NCBI RefSeq assembly: GCF_013391085.1
Contig: NZ_CP058334.1
Coordinates: 1,798,001 to 1,862,000, forward strand
From: Natronomonas halophila
GTDB lineage: Archaea; Halobacteriota; Halobacteria; Halobacteriales; Haloarculaceae
Direction: 5' to 3'
Length of the DNA stretch: 64,000 bases
The notes under the pieces were generated by a model that saw only the letters and a program-made list of their open reading frames with translations, searched no databases and had not been told where the DNA came from. The translations under genes were made by a program, and so were the position numbers. Of the stretch, positions 2,535-43,570 are shown piece after piece; positions within the stretch are counted from its first letter, which is position 1; every line of letters starts with the position of its first letter.

Positions 2535-3713
2535 ATGCAACCCTACGGGGCTTACCGCGCGGCGTTCGCGGACCGGTCGCTCCCGACGGCGTTTCTCGAC
2601 CGACGAGCCTTCGAGGCGAACGTCGAACGGACCGCCGAGCGCGCCGACGGCGTGCCCGTCCGTATCGCCTCGAAATCCGTCCGCTGTCGGGCCGTCCTCG
2701 AACGCCTCCTCGACGAACCCGACTTCGAGGGACTGATGTGCTACACCGGCGACGAGGCCGCCGATCTGGCTGCGGCGGGATTCGACGACCTGCTCGTCGC
2801 CTATCCGACCGTCGACGAAGGCGAACTCCGGCGAGTCGCTGAAACGGTCGCGGACGGCGCGCGCATCGTTCTGATGGTTGATTCGACCGAGCACGTCGAA
2901 CGAATCGGGGCGGTCGCCAGCGATGTCGGTGCCGACGTCCCGCTGTGTATCGACCTCGATTTATCGACCGAACACCTCGGAATCTACTTCGGCGTCCAGC
3001 GCTCGCCGATTCGGACGCCCGAACAGGCCACGAGCGTCGCCGACGTCATCGCCGAAACCGAGGGCGTTCATCTCTCGGGACTGATGGGCTACGAGGCACA
3101 ACTCGCCGGCCTGCCGGACCGCAACCCGGCGAACAACCCCGCGAAAAACGCGATTATCCGGCGCCTGAAGGAGCGTTCGAAGCCAATCGTCCGGGAGCGC
3201 CGGCAGGCCGTCGCCGAGGCGTTGGATGACGAATACGGACTGGCGTTCGTTAACGGCGGCGGAACTGGCAGCATCGAGTTCACCCGACAGGACCCATGGG
3301 TAACCGAGGTGACGGCGGGGTCGGCCTTCTATGCGCCCCGACAGTTCGACTGGTACGACGAGTTCGCCTACGAACCGGCCGCCGGCTACGCCGTCGAGGT
3401 GACGCGAGAGCCCGATTCGGGCGTCTACACCTGCCGTGGCGGCGGCTACGTCGCCTCCGGGCCCGTCGGTGAGGACAAGGCCCCGATTCCGTGGCTGCCC
3501 GAGGGTGCGACGCTCCGGGACGACGAAGGGGCGGGCGAGGTACAGACGCCGGTCCTCTACGACGGCGACCTCTCCGTCGGTGACCCGGTCGTGATGCGCC
3601 ACGGGAAGGCGGGCGAACTGTGCCGGTTCTTCGAGGAACTCGCGGTCGTCGACGGCGAGGAAATCGTCGACGTGTGGCCGACCTACCGGGGGGAGGGCAA
3701 ATGCTACATCTGA
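2535..3713 (+). CDS. PLP fold-III amino acid aldolase/deaminase/racemase-like enzyme
   Basis: From ATG 2535 the product has 392 residues. The N-terminal TIM-barrel has the PLP-lysine motif VRIASKSVR (Lys47), then LMCYTGDEA and LCIDLDLS, with NGGGTGSIEF as a phosphate-binding loop. A second beta domain follows with the CRGGGYVASGP and VMRHGKAGELCRFFEE segments of D-threonine aldolase-like proteins. PLP would form a Schiff base with Lys47; activity on D-hydroxy or D-amino acids is likely, but the substrate is not known. An upstream in-frame extension to 2184 overlaps the opposite gene and is not used. Its 3' end overlaps the FAD oxidase start by 13 bp, indicating translational coupling and a shared pathway. 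Confidence 0.8.
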   Translation: MQPYGAYRAAFADRSLPTAFLDRRAFEANVERTAERADGVPVRIASKSVRCRAVLERLLDEPDFEGLMCYTGDEAADLAAAGFDDLLVAYPTVDEGELRRVAETVADGARIVLMVDSTEHVERIGAVASDVGADVPLCIDLDLSTEHLGIYFGVQRSPIRTPEQATSVADVIAETEGVHLSGLMGYEAQLAGLPDRNPANNPAKNAIIRRLKERSKPIVRERRQAVAEALDDEYGLAFVNGGGTGSIEFTRQDPWVTEVTAGSAFYAPRQFDWYDEFAYEPAAGYAVEVTREPDSGVYTCRGGGYVASGPVGEDKAPIPWLPEGATLRDDEGAGEVQTPVLYDGDLSVGDPVVMRHGKAGELCRFFEELAVVDGEEIVDVWPTYRGEGKCYI

Positions 3714-4996
3714 CCGACGAGGGCGTCTGGCACAACTGGTCGAAGAGCGTGTCGGCGCGGCCGGAACACGTCCACTTCCCCGAAAGCGAGGACGCCCTCC
3801 GGACGGTCGTCACCAACGCCGAGGGCACGCTTCGGGTCGTCGGCGCGGGCCACTCCTTTCCGCCGGTGGCGAAAGCCGACGAGACGCTCGTTTCACTGGA
3901 GCGGTATACTGGTCTCGTGGACGTCGCCCCCGACGCACGGCGGGTGACGGTGCGAGCGGGCACGCCGCTGTCGGCCCTCACGAGTGCGCTGGCCGAACAC
4001 GGCCTCATGCTGGAAAACATGGGCGACATCGACGACCAATCGATTGCGGGCGCGCTCTCGACGGGCACCCACGGCACCGGCACCGACTTCGGCGTCATGC
4101 CGACCCAAATCGCGGGAATGCGGCTTATAAAGGCGAACGGGGAGGTGCTCGAACTCGACGAAGCAGACGACCGCTTCCCGCACGCACAGGTCTCGCTCGG
4201 CAGTCTCGGTGTCATCAGCACTGTCACGCTGGACGTGGTCGACGACTACCGCCTCGAAGAGCGGAAGTTCCCCGCCGATATCGACGACGTGCTGGCGAAT
4301 CTCGACTCCTACCGCGAGCACCGCAACTTCGAGTTCTGGTGGTTCCCGCACACCGATACGGCGCTGGTGAAGATTCTGGAGGAGACCGACGAAACGGGTT
4401 CGCCCGGCCGTCTCGACTCGGTTGAGGAGCGTCTCGAAAATCTCGCGTGGGAGGGGCTCTGCCGTGCCGGGACGCGGGTTCGGCGGGCCTCCCCGCTTTT
4501 AAGCAGGTTCACCGCGGGGACGTTCTCCGAGTCCGAACGCATCGGCCCCGCGCGCGAGGTGTACCCCACGACGCGTGCCGTCCGGTTCAACGAAACCGAA
4601 TACGGCGTCGCCCGCGAGGACGCGGTGGACGCCTTCGACGAACTCCGGAGCGTCGTCGAATCTCACGACGCCATGTTTCCGGTGGAGTTCCGCGACGTGG
4701 CCGGCGATGGGATTCCGCTGTCGCCCGCTTACGACCGTGAATCGACGTTCCTCGCCGTCCACGCCTATTATAAACGCGAGTGGGAACCGCTGGTTCGGGA
4801 CGCCGAAGCCGTCTTCGACCGATACGACGGGCGGCCACACTGGGGCAAACACCACACGAAGACGGCCGAGGAATTCGCGGGTTTGTATCCCGAGTGGGGC
4901 GATTTTCAGACGGTTCGGCGGGAACTCGACCCCGATGAGCTGTTCCTGAACGACCACCTTCGGGACGTGTTCGGCAAGTCGGGCGTCGAATCGTGA
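3701..4996 (+). CDS. FAD-linked oxidase, D-arabinono-1,4-lactone/L-gulonolactone oxidase family
   Basis: Starting at ATG 3701 inside the end of the upstream gene, the product has 431 residues. The N-terminal FAD-binding (VAO/PCMH) domain has VVGAGHSFPPVA, where His51 is the usual covalent FAD attachment site, and GALSTGTHGTG for the pyrophosphate. The C-terminal ALO domain has RVRRASPLLSRF and ends with RPHWGKHHT and DPDELFLNDHLRDVF, typical of sugar-lactone oxidases. Actinobacterial relatives are, as I recall, also found next to a fold-III PLP enzyme, so a joint oxidation and deamination of a polyol- or amino-acid-like substrate is plausible. The true substrate is unknown. Confidence 0.85.
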   Translation: MLHLTDEGVWHNWSKSVSARPEHVHFPESEDALRTVVTNAEGTLRVVGAGHSFPPVAKADETLVSLERYTGLVDVAPDARRVTVRAGTPLSALTSALAEHGLMLENMGDIDDQSIAGALSTGTHGTGTDFGVMPTQIAGMRLIKANGEVLELDEADDRFPHAQVSLGSLGVISTVTLDVVDDYRLEERKFPADIDDVLANLDSYREHRNFEFWWFPHTDTALVKILEETDETGSPGRLDSVEERLENLAWEGLCRAGTRVRRASPLLSRFTAGTFSESERIGPAREVYPTTRAVRFNETEYGVAREDAVDAFDELRSVVESHDAMFPVEFRDVAGDGIPLSPAYDRESTFLAVHAYYKREWEPLVRDAEAVFDRYDGRPHWGKHHTKTAEEFAGLYPEWGDFQTVRRELDPDELFLNDHLRDVFGKSGVES

Positions 4997-5033
4997 CGCT
5001 GGGCTTTTCTACGCGCGACACGACACCTGAGAC

Positions 5034-5912
5034 ATGACATCCGTCGAGGCGAAGCGGGAGGCCGCAATCGAGGACCTGCAGGAGTTCGATAGCGTCCTCA
5101 TCGCGTTTTCGGGGGGGGTCGACTCCTCGGTGGTCGCCGCGCTGGCCCACGAGGCGCTCGGCGAGGATGCCGTCGCCTGCACCGCCAAAAGCGAGACGCT
5201 GCCCGACGCCGAACTGACGGAGGCAAACCGGGTCGCCGACGAAATCGGCATCCGCTACGAGACGGTCTCCTTTTCGGAGTTGGACAGCGAGGCGTTCATC
5301 GAAAACGACGGCGAGCGCTGCTATCACTGCCGGTCGATGCGGCTGGGCCGGATGTTCGACAAGGCTCGCGAACTGGACATCGGCGTGGTCTGCGACGGGA
5401 CGAACGCCTCCGACCCCGGCGAGGGCCACCGGCCCGGCCTCCGCGCGGTCGAGGAGTTGGACGCCTACTCGCCGCTTCTCGAACACGGCATCACGAAAGA
5501 GGAGGTGCGTGAAATCGCCCGCCACTACGACCTCTCGGTGGCCGACAAACCGTCGATGGCGTGTCTCTCCTCGCGGATTCCGACGGGGCTGGAAGTGACC
5601 GAGGAGAAACTCTCCCGCATCGAGAAGGCCGAAACCCTGCTCCGGACGTGGGGCTTCGAGCAGTTCCGCGTGCGCGACCACGACGGCCTCGCGCGCATCG
5701 AGGTGGGCGAGGACGAACTGGAGCGTGCGCTGGACGCCGATTTCGCGGCGGCCGTCCGTGACCACCTCACCGATATCGGCTTCGACCACGTGACGCTGGA
5801 CCTGGAGGGTTATCGGACCGGGAGCGTCTCACCGGAGGACGCCGACGAGTCGACCGACGCCGAGACGGCCGACGACGTGTTGGATGCCGACTATCCGACC
5901 AGCGACGACTGA
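5034..5912 (+). CDS. larE: LarE-type ATP-dependent sulfur transferase
   Basis: The 292-residue protein has the PP-loop SGGVDSS (residues 26-32), Cys96 and Cys99 in CYHC, and Cys177 in MACLSSRIPTG. LarE adenylates pyridinium dicarboxylate-type intermediates and inserts sulfur during synthesis of the nickel-pincer cofactor of lactate racemase. The Lactobacillus enzyme sacrifices one cysteine; versions with a CxxC plus a third cysteine bind a [4Fe-4S] cluster and can act catalytically. This protein has all three cysteines, so I predict the cluster type. No larA, larB or larC is visible nearby. The acidic tail after about residue 265 is low complexity. Confidence 0.88.
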   Translation: MTSVEAKREAAIEDLQEFDSVLIAFSGGVDSSVVAALAHEALGEDAVACTAKSETLPDAELTEANRVADEIGIRYETVSFSELDSEAFIENDGERCYHCRSMRLGRMFDKARELDIGVVCDGTNASDPGEGHRPGLRAVEELDAYSPLLEHGITKEEVREIARHYDLSVADKPSMACLSSRIPTGLEVTEEKLSRIEKAETLLRTWGFEQFRVRDHDGLARIEVGEDELERALDADFAAAVRDHLTDIGFDHVTLDLEGYRTGSVSPEDADESTDAETADDVLDADYPTSDD

Positions 5913-33677: not shown

Positions 33678-34400
33678 CTACGTCCCGCAGGTCGCGTCGA
33701 GACACCGTCGACCGCTGGCGGTCTCGAAGACCGGGAGCCCGCAATCGCACTCCTCGACGATGCGGCCATCGGGAATCGAAAAGCCGGTCTCGCAGTCGGG
33801 GTAGTCCGCACAGCCAGCGATGAGACCGCCGCGCCGGAGGATTTCGAGGGGGCTTCCGCACTCCGGGCAGTCCCATTCGCGGTCGAACCGTTCGGTGACG
33901 GCCTCCGTGAGGGAGCCACAATCGTAGTCCAGACACAACTCGAAGGTCTCGCCGCGGTCGGCGCGGAACTTCGGCAGGCCGCAGTCACAGGTGTCGTCAG
34001 TGACGCTGGCGCCGCTCGGAAGCCCGAAGACAGCCTCGCAATCGAGACAGACGACCTCGCCGGCGGTACGGACGAGGTGGCCGCCACAGCGACAGTCGCC
34101 GACTGGGATTCCGGCACGGCTCACGTCGTGGTTCTGAGTGGTAAGGTCGCCGTCCTCGTCGCCTGCGGCCTCGATTTGCAGGCTCTCGTCGCCGTCGGTC
34201 GCAACGACCCACAGCGGGTCGGTCGTCACCGAGAGTTCCGCCGGGCGGGTGAGCCACGCGACGGGCTGATAGCCGTCGGCGTCGTGGACGAGGACGGTGT
34301 CATCGGGCTTGATGAGGACGTGAACCCGGCCGCGCTGGATCCGGTCGCGGCGGCCGCTGGCGTGGACGATACAGTCGCCGGTGATGGTGCGAATCGACAC
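33678..34400 (-). CDS. NucS N-terminal-like domain fused to topoisomerase-type zinc ribbons
   Basis: The 240-residue protein begins with a domain that resembles the N-terminus of NucS: HVLIKPDDTVLVHDADGY here versus HLMLKPDGAALVHTDEGQ in the NucS encoded at 45134-45898. It lacks the NucS nuclease domain. Four cysteine-rich modules follow: CRCGGHL...CLDC, CDCGLPKF...CLDYDC, CPECGSPL...CADYPDC and CDCGLPVF...CLDATC, the pattern of the C-terminal zinc ribbons of bacterial-type topoisomerase I. This suggests single-stranded or damaged DNA binding; function unknown. It is 70 bp upstream of endA, same strand. Confidence 0.8.
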   Translation of the reverse strand: MSIRTITGDCIVHASGRRDRIQRGRVHVLIKPDDTVLVHDADGYQPVAWLTRPAELSVTTDPLWVVATDGDESLQIEAAGDEDGDLTTQNHDVSRAGIPVGDCRCGGHLVRTAGEVVCLDCEAVFGLPSGASVTDDTCDCGLPKFRADRGETFELCLDYDCGSLTEAVTERFDREWDCPECGSPLEILRRGGLIAGCADYPDCETGFSIPDGRIVEECDCGLPVFETASGRRCLDATCGT

Positions 34401-34446: not shown

Positions 34447-35259
34447 TCAGGCCGCGGAAACGCTCTCTGCGAGGCCCAGCAGTTGGACGGGGTCAGCTTC
34501 GTCGACGTCGGTGCCGAGGACGAGTCGCTGGCGGGGGCGACCGATGTCCTTCGGAATTTTCTCGGTGTCGATGAGGCCGACGTCCTCCAGTTTTCGCTTT
34601 TCGCGGGAGAACTTCGCCTTGCTGCCGACGCCGGTGGATTCGCCCCAGTTGCCGAGTTCGTAGAACTGGACCTCGTTTTTCGCCCCCATCAGGATACTGA
34701 GGCGGACGGGGTCGACGGAGGTTTCGTCGCTTCGGGTCTCAACGGCCGCGCTCAGCACCGTCTCGACGTCGTCCCGCATCGTCGTGCCGAGTTTCTCGTC
34801 GAGTTGGTCGAGCATTCCCGTGTAGGCGGGCGTCCGAAAGGAGACGTCAGCGGCGGTGTCGAATTGCTCTTCGACGGTCTCGCGCGTGCCGGCGACGAAC
34901 GATTCGTCGTCGTCCATTACCACGGTCAGTGTCGTCTCGTCGACGCCCGTAATCGTGGTTACTGCGCCGTCGGTGATGACGAACGAGGGTAGGTGGCCCT
35001 CCCGTCGCCGGACGCTGACGGTGCCCCGCTCGATATAGTCGACCAGATACGAAGCGACCAGAAACCGACGACGGACTGCTTTTGCCGTCTCATCGTCCGT
35101 CAGAATGCGAATCTCCCCCTCCGGGTCGTGTTCTTCGAGTGCAGACAGAATATCCGTGAAATCGGAGACACGAGAAGACGTAATGAACACGTCGCTGTCG
35201 GCCTTGAAGACGTCAGCATAGGCCGAGACGCGTTCATTATTGATACTCTTTAAGGGCAT
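34447..35259 (-). CDS. TbsP/DUF5821-family transcriptional regulator
   Basis: From ATG 35259 the protein has 270 residues. The N-terminal half resembles a Rossmann-like sensor (DVFITSSRVSDFTDILSAL; EIRILTDDETAKAVRRRFLVASYLVDYI), the middle has TVVMDDDESFVAGT, and the C-terminal part has a winged-helix ending LEDVGLIDTEKIPKDIGRPR, which I recognise from haloarchaeal TbsP proteins. TbsP in Haloferax represses the glycolytic gene gap in response to sugar; this is likely a paralogue. It is divergent from the CHAT protease gene with a 193-bp shared intergenic region, so it could control that gene. Confidence 0.75.
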   Translation of the reverse strand: MPLKSINNERVSAYADVFKADSDVFITSSRVSDFTDILSALEEHDPEGEIRILTDDETAKAVRRRFLVASYLVDYIERGTVSVRRREGHLPSFVITDGAVTTITGVDETTLTVVMDDDESFVAGTRETVEEQFDTAADVSFRTPAYTGMLDQLDEKLGTTMRDDVETVLSAAVETRSDETSVDPVRLSILMGAKNEVQFYELGNWGESTGVGSKAKFSREKRKLEDVGLIDTEKIPKDIGRPRQRLVLGTDVDEADPVQLLGLAESVSAA

Positions 35260-35420
35260 ACCTCTAGACACGTCGATACCTGAGTTAAATCTTCGGCAAA
35301 CGGTCGGGGGATAATCCCTCCCGTTCGGCGTGATGGCCGACCTTCCGTCCGGTTTGGACGTACGCCCCCCCATCCCGTGTTATCCTCTATCGAACCGTCG
35401 GCGACTGATTCGATGGGCAA

Positions 35421-35429
35421 CTTTATACA
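35421..35429 (+). promoter_or_regulatory. TATA box for a leaderless CHAT-protease transcript
   Basis: CTTTATACA is centred about 28 nt before the ATG at 35453, the distance typical for TBP-driven initiation at or next to the start codon in haloarchaea. There is no Shine-Dalgarno sequence before 35453. This position supports ATG 35453 over the upstream GTG at 35444. Confidence 0.6.
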
Positions 35430-35452
35430 TGGAAATTGGGTAGGTGGAACTA

Positions 35453-37525
35453 ATGACTGGTGTCGTCTTCGAGTCGCTGTCGTCGCCACCGCGGATTCGC
35501 GTCGCGGATACCGTCGGTCACGAACAGACCGACCTCTATACCGACCAGCCCTGCACGCTGACGCCCACGACTGCTGACTTTCCCTTCCGTGTTACCGACG
35601 CCGTGGAGACGACGATATCGGGGTTCGAGACCTCGAAAGCGATTCAGGTGTATGTTCGGGACCGTTCTGGTCGGATGGTTCTTAGCGCTGAACATGACTG
35701 CGAACACTCGTTACCGGCTGATGACTACTTCATCGAGCTCTCTGCCTCGGTTAAAATCTACATAGAGGTATCCAGCAGCATATCTATTGACGCGAACCTG
35801 GAGCGATCGCGTGTTTCATTCGACGGCCCGACACGGCTGGTGATCGGATCTCGATCGCCTCGGAGCCAACCCCCCGAGACTGTCACCACGACTGGTGACC
35901 CCGAAGACCTGATGACTGCGTTGTCGTGTCTGGGTGAAGGTATTCTGGCTGACTCTCCTGACCGCTCGTATCCAACTATTCGGGGACATCCGCCAGAGAT
36001 AGCGCTCGGCTCGGAACTCGAGGTCCCAGACAACATCGAGCCACACGATTCCGATGTCGTCTTCGAACTCCCACCTCGTATTGACGCGCTCTACCCTGCT
36101 GTTCCGCTAGTCTACTATCTCGATGCAGCCATCGAACCGGGTGAAACCCCTCGAATCGTCGCTGACGGCGAGACTATCTATGAGACGTCCCTCGAAGAGT
36201 TCCCATCAGCCGTCAAAGAAATCCTTCCGCATGTGTTCCTGCTTGACTGTCTCGCTCGTCGGGCTGGCTTTTACCCATTCAAAATCGGCGTTCACGAACG
36301 CGTAACTGATGATTTACCCTTTGCCCCAGCTGACTACTACGACCGACCACTGGCAGAGCAATTGCGGGCGTATCTGGATGTTCCTTTCGAGACGCTGAAA
36401 CCATATCTTCCACAGTGGTCGGTTACCGCTCACGTCGAACCAGATATCGAACATGTAACCGCGATGCCGTATCTCGCGGCGCAGTTGGCCTTCGTCGAAT
36501 GTACGACGTATCCACGGGTGACAGGTGACGACGCCCGCAAGGCGAGCATACAGGCCTTTGTTGAGGGTGGAAGTAGCGCGACTCGAGCAACGACCGACGT
36601 ATTCAACGAGGATGCCGCTTTCGTCGATGTCTCACCTGATCCTCGAACACTCTCCGATATCTGGGTCGGCGATGATATCCCGCTCCGAGCGAGCGAGTTC
36701 ATGGCTGAGGGTCACCAGAACCGTCACAACCGGGAGCCGCTCGAAGAGAGGACCGTCACGGTGACCATCGTCTGCAACGAATCGTGGATGGACGGTGAGG
36801 CGGCTGCTGTCGAGGAACTATACGGTACGCGAGAGGACCTTCCTTTCAATATTCGCACCCATGACGGGTTAACCTGCGACGAATTGGCCGAGGTCCTTCA
36901 GCGCGATACTGACTTCTTCCATTATATCGGTCATGCCGAGCCCAAAGGATTGCAGTGTACGAACGGCTTTCTCGATATCCAGAATATTTCGTCAGTTGGC
37001 ACGGATATCTTCTTCCTCAATGCTTGCCAGTCTTATCAACAGGCGGCCGCTCTGGTCGAAGCCGGTGCGATTGGAGGTATCGCCACGCTCAGCGATGTAA
37101 TCGATGAACCGGCTAGCGCTGTTGGCCGGACAACTGCTCGCATGCTGAATCAAGGTTTCGGGCTTCGTGATGCTCTTTCGATTGCACGAAGCCGTTCATT
37201 CACTGGCGGGCAGTATCTGACTATCGGTGACGATAGTGCCACATTTCTACACGCAGAGAGTCATCTTCCGAACCGATGTATCGTTGCTGAATCAGGAAAT
37301 GAGTACCATCTCTCGATGCTTCCCTATACGGACCAATACGGGCTCGGAGGAATGATAACACCATATACCGACTCCGAGGGTAAGCGATATCTTAGCGGCA
37401 CCTTGATTGGCCCCTACAATCTTTCCAGAGACGAACTCGTGGACTTCCTCGAACTCCAAGACGTCCCCGTCGAATTCGAAGGCGAGTTCTATTGGGCGTC
37501 GGACTTAGCCGAAGAACTGGAATAA
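35453..37525 (+). CDS. CHAT-domain (caspase-like) protease of halophile type
   Basis: The product from ATG 35453 has 690 residues. The C-terminal part is a CHAT domain: FFHYIGHAEP with predicted catalytic His494, and FFLNACQSYQQ with Cys525, followed by EAGAIGGIATLSDVIDEPA and ARMLNQGFGLRDALSIARS, all characteristic. The first ~135 residues look beta-rich; residues ~135-430 are helical and unassigned, and about 90 residues follow the protease core. There is no TPR repeat or membrane helix. CHAT proteases act in cell-death and defence systems (for example TPR-CHAT of Craspase) or regulated proteolysis. The coding sequence is visibly lower in GC than its neighbours, suggesting transfer. Confidence 0.85.
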   Translation: MTGVVFESLSSPPRIRVADTVGHEQTDLYTDQPCTLTPTTADFPFRVTDAVETTISGFETSKAIQVYVRDRSGRMVLSAEHDCEHSLPADDYFIELSASVKIYIEVSSSISIDANLERSRVSFDGPTRLVIGSRSPRSQPPETVTTTGDPEDLMTALSCLGEGILADSPDRSYPTIRGHPPEIALGSELEVPDNIEPHDSDVVFELPPRIDALYPAVPLVYYLDAAIEPGETPRIVADGETIYETSLEEFPSAVKEILPHVFLLDCLARRAGFYPFKIGVHERVTDDLPFAPADYYDRPLAEQLRAYLDVPFETLKPYLPQWSVTAHVEPDIEHVTAMPYLAAQLAFVECTTYPRVTGDDARKASIQAFVEGGSSATRATTDVFNEDAAFVDVSPDPRTLSDIWVGDDIPLRASEFMAEGHQNRHNREPLEERTVTVTIVCNESWMDGEAAAVEELYGTREDLPFNIRTHDGLTCDELAEVLQRDTDFFHYIGHAEPKGLQCTNGFLDIQNISSVGTDIFFLNACQSYQQAAALVEAGAIGGIATLSDVIDEPASAVGRTTARMLNQGFGLRDALSIARSRSFTGGQYLTIGDDSATFLHAESHLPNRCIVAESGNEYHLSMLPYTDQYGLGGMITPYTDSEGKRYLSGTLIGPYNLSRDELVDFLELQDVPVEFEGEFYWASDLAEELE

Positions 37526-42250: not shown

Positions 42251-43570
42251 GTGACCCTGCTGGACGGCCTTTCGGGTTTCGAATTCGAGGACGCAGTCTC
42301 CTCGCTGTTCCGCGCCCACGGCTACGAGAACGTGCAGGTCGGGACCCGCGTCGCCGACGAGGGACGGGATATCACGATGTACGACGGCGATACCGCCTAC
42401 GTCGTCGAATGCAAGCACACCGACACCGTCTCCCGGCCGGTCGTCCAGAAACTCCACTCGGCCATCGCAACCTTCGACCACGACGGCCCGAAACGCGGCA
42501 TGGTCGTCACCTCGGGCCGCTTTACCGGCCCCGCCGAGGAGTACGCCGACCGACTCCGAAAGCGGGACGACCCACATCTAATCGACCTCGTTGACGGCCG
42601 CGAACTCCGCAAACTCGGCGAGGAGGTCGGGATGGACCTCTACAACGGCCGCATCGAAATCCTCTGTGAGGAGACGCTGCCCGTCGGCGACCCCGAAACG
42701 GTCTTCGTCGATGTCTTCGAGGACGTCGCCAACGCCCCCTCACGAGCGGACCTCCCGACGCCGGACTACGACGTGCGCTACCGCCCCGTCGTCGACGTCG
42801 AGGCAGTCACCCGCGCCACCTTCGAAACGAGCGTCGGCGTCATCCACCGCATCGACCGCCGGGACCACCTCGTCGTCGAAGCCGACGGGCCTGCCCCGCG
42901 ACTGGCGTCGGACCTCGTTGACCTGACCGGCGTCGAGACGGTCAACCTCGAAACCGCCCAACAGCGCCACGGCGGAGAGGCCGTACGCTTCCAGCACACC
43001 GAAAGCGAATACCGGGAATGGGCGACCGACCGCCTCTGTGACCTGCTCGAAACGACGGTCACCTACACCGGCGACAACAACGTCACCTACCACAAGGACT
43101 GCCGCCCGTCGCCGAACGACGTGGCGGTCCGCCGGGCCAACCCGCTCTACATCCCTCGCGTCGATGCCGGCGTCGGGTTGGGCGAGTACACCCATAATCT
43201 CGAATACGCCGCCGCGGGCAACCGCTACGTCACCCGCGAGGACGGGATTCGACGCTGTGTCCATTGTGATACCGCCGGCCCCGAAGCGGCCGAATACACC
43301 TACTGCGAGAACTGCGGCAGTATCAGTTGTGCAACCCACACCGAGGAGGAGCGACTCACCGGCGACCCGGTCTGTACCGGCTGTGCGGTGACCGGTGACT
43401 TCTTCTTCGCGACGAAGTACTTCTTCGACGAGGGGAACCGCGAGACGTTCCGCGAGGAATACGAGGCGATGCCCTTCTACCGCAAACCGCTGGAGAACCC
43501 TTACCTCGCGGCGGGTGTGGCCGTCGCACTGGTGCTCGTGTTGCTGGTGCTCGTCGGAGCGTTCGTTTGA
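42251..43570 (+). CDS. Membrane-tethered Mrr/restriction-endonuclease-like protein
   Basis: From GTG 42251 the protein has 439 residues. The N-terminal domain has the PD-(D/E)XK fold of Mrr-type enzymes: GFEFEDAVSSLFRAHGYENV, then GRDITMYD (Asp40), VVECKH (Glu53, Lys55) and VVQKLHSAI (Gln66), with all catalytic residues intact. A middle region of about 230 residues is unassigned. A zinc-ribbon-like cluster follows (CVHCDTA, YCENCGSISC, CTGC), and a single transmembrane helix near residues 412-435 ends the protein. No modification methylase is adjacent. Confidence 0.85.
   Translation: MTLLDGLSGFEFEDAVSSLFRAHGYENVQVGTRVADEGRDITMYDGDTAYVVECKHTDTVSRPVVQKLHSAIATFDHDGPKRGMVVTSGRFTGPAEEYADRLRKRDDPHLIDLVDGRELRKLGEEVGMDLYNGRIEILCEETLPVGDPETVFVDVFEDVANAPSRADLPTPDYDVRYRPVVDVEAVTRATFETSVGVIHRIDRRDHLVVEADGPAPRLASDLVDLTGVETVNLETAQQRHGGEAVRFQHTESEYREWATDRLCDLLETTVTYTGDNNVTYHKDCRPSPNDVAVRRANPLYIPRVDAGVGLGEYTHNLEYAAAGNRYVTREDGIRRCVHCDTAGPEAAEYTYCENCGSISCATHTEEERLTGDPVCTGCAVTGDFFFATKYFFDEGNRETFREEYEAMPFYRKPLENPYLAAGVAVALVLVLLVLVGAFV

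Follow-up and report, generated by a model that had tools for sequence, protein, structure and literature searches.

A 690-residue protein resembling CHAT proteases is encoded on the forward strand (35453-37525) of the 64-kb stretch of haloarchaeal DNA analyzed here, hereafter termed the window, and its presence raises the question of what such a protein does in this setting and whether its gene acts alone. The original prediction assigned the gene to a lower-GC island of its own, "alone between pheA and a TbsP-like regulator", and considered a defense or a regulated-proteolysis module plausible. The two neighbors were correctly named, but "alone" proved misleading: the TbsP-like gene recurs as a partner of this protein family.

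A CHAT-fold protease homolog and its predicted domains

The ORF begins with an ATG at position 35453, and a TTTATA box (35422-35427) lying ~28 bp upstream fits a leaderless haloarchaeal transcript starting at that ATG. The box is located in a divergent intergenic region of 193 bp (35260-35452, GC 0.544). The encoded protein is acidic (Asp plus Glu 17% vs Lys plus Arg 7%) and carries, exactly as originally described, His494 in a YIGHA motif and Cys525 in an LNACQS motif. The earlier statement that TPRs and membrane helices are absent also holds: the highest Kyte-Doolittle value among all 19-residue windows is 1.52, indicating no membrane helix, and the Pfam scan returned neither a TPR nor a SAVED domain. 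In fact, that scan yielded zero domains above cut-off, only a chance match to DUF4964 and a sub-threshold match to CHAT (PF12770) that spans the dyad region (residues 449-582) at 18.3 bits vs a curated cut-off of 24, leaving the first ~430 residues outside the CHAT match.

The N-terminal region (residues 1-139; 35453-35869, + strand) is predicted by AF2 to form an all-beta sandwich domain (mean pLDDT 89.9), for which a fold search of the PDB gave only insignificant beta-sandwich matches, mostly to glycosidases. A conserved middle region (residues ~131-345; 35843-36487, + strand) is delineated by near-invariant positions in the family alignment, namely G132, R134, R171, S172, P174, R177, D265, R269, G272, W322 and L345. 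The putative CHAT catalytic region (residues ~440-600; 36770-37252, + strand) contains both His494 and Cys525, and is identified by the PF12770 match, the dyad and the fold match. The full-length AF2 model, built from 3 sequences, is poor (pLDDT 46.5), and the best Foldseek matches in the PDB, obtained with a low-confidence partial model and at low TM-scores, were to SAVED-CHAT (8tl0, E 1.6e-5) and then, more weakly, to TPR-CHAT (7y84), separase and gingipain. Sequence searches of the PDB with the window protein and with the family profile found nothing relevant. Given that every part of the active branch of the family retains the dyad, and that CHAT, separase and gingipain structures head the fold matches, assignment of the window protein as a caspase-like cysteine protease homolog of clan CD, with a putative CHAT fold, is supported at the level of sequence and model.

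With the SAVED-CHAT protein of CRISPR type III, the best fold match, the window protein shares a Cys/His dyad and, as far as the low-confidence model goes, a putative CHAT protease fold, but it has a different N-terminal domain with no SAVED domain detected, and no CRISPR genes were seen beside it. The TPR-CHAT protein Csx29 of Craspase (7y84, 8eey) is a CHAT protease that is connected to a transcription factor through its established cleavage target (Csx30/CASP-sigma), whereas the window system lacks both TPRs and Cas7-11 and is instead partnered with an archaeal TbsP-type regulator. Separase, gingipain and caspase of clan CD share fold matches and the His-then-Cys order, but are distant.

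A locally foreign two-gene segment

The neighbor on the opposite strand (34447-35259, - strand) encodes a 270-residue TbsP-like (DUF5821) transcription regulator in which both TbsP_N (76.7 bits) and HTH_TbsP_C (130.4 bits) pass their cut-offs of 27.1. It thus resembles TbsP of Haloferax volcanii in having both domains, but scores 203 against the cut-off of 300 for the TbsP equivalog (NCBIfam NF047393); judged by these scores, it is a divergent TbsP-like protein. In Haloferax, TbsP acts together with TrmB in regulating gapII, and it also affects motility and the formation of biofilms (PMC13286277). Two further genes in the window may be recorded here: one between endA and the TbsP-like gene (33678-34400, - strand) encodes a NucS_N-like domain with topoisomerase-type zinc ribbons, and another (42251-43570, + strand) encodes an Mrr_cat restriction-endonuclease-like protein whose C-terminal part includes a hydrophobic stretch.

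The unusual composition noted in the original prediction is real, but it is not restricted to a single gene. The CHAT gene has a GC content of 0.551 and a GC3 of 0.58, vs a mean GC3 of 0.857 (sd 0.042) for the other long ORFs of the window, and no other among 51 long ORFs (mean 0.696, sd 0.065) has a codon adaptation as low as its value of 0.391. The TbsP-like gene ranks third lowest among the same 51 (0.546), so that the odd segment comprises a two-gene unit together with its 193-bp spacer. Low GC is not a trait of the family, as the difference in GC between gene and locus has a median of -0.006 across 77 members. Additionally, in the regions fetched around pheA from eight congeners, none of the window genes that lie on the CHAT side of pheA was present; this absence, in combination with the odd composition, marks the two-gene segment as locally foreign. 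No convincing flanking repeats that would mark an insertion were found, and the 64-kb window contains no tRNA genes. The best reading is that the two-gene unit was horizontally acquired.

A near-universal family and its recurrent partner

The CHAT family has members in 271 of 292 haloarchaeal genomes, frequently in multiple copies and with ~25-46% identity. Four other genomes of the same genus among the 292 have no member, while the host genome has a second copy (L002) and Halobacterium salinarum has three. Homologs also reside on 25 plasmid records, where most carry the label "hypothetical protein"; one annotation reads CHAT domain-containing and another caspase family. PF12770 detects 12 of 30 family representatives at E<=0.1 (best E 2.2e-5); it had no match in a Haloferax control genome, a miss that is uninformative because the same profile also misses the second copy in the host genome. 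A search of the available literature on CHAT domains in haloarchaea and on DUF7504 found nothing. The family is nearly universal in haloarchaea yet almost unstudied.

The dyad, in HYIGH- and LNAC-type motifs, is retained by 78 of the 79 full-length members; only a divergent ORF in one genome (G006) departs from this pattern. Eleven paralogs at nine loci (L183-L191), first met as partial matches and sometimes arranged in tandem (e.g. L185:888-2909, L189:999-3044, and L191:1009-3072 and 3202-5241), form a separate branch of pseudo-proteases. All eleven have lost the catalytic pair, one retaining a Cys without the His, and they keep R171, P174, R177 and D265, save that one has Cys at position 171. 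Retention of these motifs without the dyad implies that the N-terminal half is constrained apart from catalysis, and this half may accordingly serve for sensing or binding. Since the branch shows that the family has functions without catalysis, one might suppose that the window protein is itself a non-proteolytic scaffold whose CHAT fold is kept for binding and whose dyad goes unused. We consider this very unlikely, as both residues, within their motifs, are retained in the window protein and in 77 further members, a pattern hard to explain without catalysis. The original prediction had made its protease and island proposals depend on homologs keeping the His/Cys pair and on the region being unusual in GC or in synteny; homologs do keep the pair outside the separate pseudo-protease branch, the GC is odd, and the locus is non-syntenic in congeners, outcomes that refute neither proposal.

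A search for co-occurring neighbors across halophile genomes, as originally proposed, showed that, among the matches listed, 35 of 50 genera have a gene with TbsP_N no more than 2.5 kb from a family member, the remaining 15 lacking such a pair among those matches. By our estimate, with a few copies of each gene per ~3.6-Mb genome, chance pairing would be expected in well under one genome in 50. The regulator is nearly always directly downstream: 37 pairs are arranged CHAT->TbsP on one strand, although most of these may share one ancestral pairing and so do not represent 37 independent events, and 2 are divergent. In Halobacterium salinarum DSM 3754 the paired genes are ~130 bp apart, the TbsP-linked protease gene being located at G400:C7:35387-37036. 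One genome (G124) has 16 TbsP-like and 12 CHAT-family matches, four of them paired. The original prediction, which saw no obvious cognate target, thus overlooked a recurrent partner next door. Some congeners have TbsP without the protease, which indicates that the regulator can work on its own.

The window pair belongs to a separate and rare clade of four, with a pair in G295, a plasmid-borne pair of Halobaculum salinum and a pair in G121. The two trees agree on this clade and on its inner topology (CHAT tree, SH-aLRT 94; TbsP tree, UFBoot 97 and SH-aLRT 78), although long branches in each call for caution. The G295 regulator is row L075 of the TbsP tree, where separate retrieval of its locus is the sole reason for its "canonical" label. 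Across 391 genomes only three members of the clade were found, at 1125 bits or above, the next best match scoring 748. Three of the four pairs are divergent and that of G295 is convergent, and such mixed orientations show that the link between CHAT and TbsP-like genes survives rearrangement.

Other family members adjoin signaling genes, including DUF7504, HalX response regulators and a PAS-type group, the last assigned by sequence clustering rather than by Pfam scan. At four loci (L056, L057, L052 and L058), DUF7504 lies upstream of the CHAT gene and a HalX response regulator lies downstream on the opposite strand, constituting a second recurrent signaling context. At others (L032, L036, L037, L039, L045, L107 and more), an unannotated gene of ~220 aa is found immediately upstream; this third syntenic context also features a nearby glyoxalase-like gene and a small conserved protein.

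Proposed regulated proteolysis and a candidate source of caspase-like activity

We favor, at about even probability, a reading in which the clan CD CHAT protease and its TbsP-type partner form a horizontally acquired regulated-proteolysis unit; from the features above we infer the proteolysis, the substrate, the signal and the direction of control. The N-terminal beta sandwich and the conserved middle region would sense a signal or bind a partner, and this event would activate the His494/Cys525 site. Cleavage of a regulatory protein by the protease would follow, with the TbsP-like regulator itself or something that it binds as the likeliest target, and transcription would be altered as a result. 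The divergent promoter region that the two genes share is probably a target of the regulator as well. To name the TbsP-like protein as the substrate is a guess; pairing establishes linkage and is not proof of a substrate. There is a precedent in the TPR-CHAT protein Csx29, whose cleavage substrate Csx30 inhibits the sigma factor CASP-sigma (PMC10028731).

The part of the original prediction that envisaged a proteolysis module is backed by the recurrent pairing, while nothing found supports the part that envisaged defense. As an anti-virus or cell-death effector, the protease would be triggered by infection to cleave essential proteins. CHAT proteases do act in CRISPR type III defense (Csx29, SAVED-CHAT), the copy in the window has the look of a horizontal acquisition, homologs occur on plasmids, and the Mrr_cat nuclease gene is only 4.7 kb away. 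However, the family occurs in nearly all haloarchaea instead of being patchily distributed, and its neighbors are regulatory genes; PADLOC matched the protein to 0 families and, among ten neighbors scanned, matched only the Mrr protein, and searches of phages and viral contigs returned zero homologs. We therefore judge a defense role quite unlikely, and linkage to one regulator type, and to signaling genes in other clades, favors regulated proteolysis over it.

The main rival to a regulated-proteolysis unit, possible though we lean against it, is that the two genes are coupled by transcription only, such that the protease gene is under the control of the TbsP-like regulator while its product serves as a housekeeping or stress protease on other substrates. 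The divergent arrangement of the window pair, with the CHAT gene possessing its own promoter box, is consistent with such coupling, as is the near universality of the family. In most pairs, however, the regulator lies downstream on the same strand, unlike a regulator of its neighbor's promoter. A protease of this kind might also account for an orphan caspase-like activity that is linked to stress and has been reported in Haloferax volcanii and also in Halorubrum and Haloarcula (PMC3615174). From substrate and inhibitor data, Seth-Pasricha et al. described the caspase-4-like activity of H. volcanii as dominant and zVAD-sensitive, and they state that the responsible protein remains to be identified (PMC3615174). 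Against this attribution, caspase-like cleavage is also known from the proteasome (work cited in PMC3615174), and caspase-like activity has been reported in archaea beyond the haloarchaea as well.

The CHAT family is nonetheless a candidate for the haloarchaeal activity. A broader proposal, which we regard as improbable, is that the near-universal CHAT proteases and their pseudo-protease relatives control TbsP-type and two-component circuits by proteolysis and also supply the caspase-like activity for which a gene has yet to be assigned. With a near-universal clan CD family represented by three copies in Halobacterium salinarum, the origin of this activity becomes testable by gene deletion. 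More generally, the recurrent pairing with TbsP suggests proteolytic control of transcription in archaea, through a logic that resembles that of Craspase but stands apart from CRISPR.
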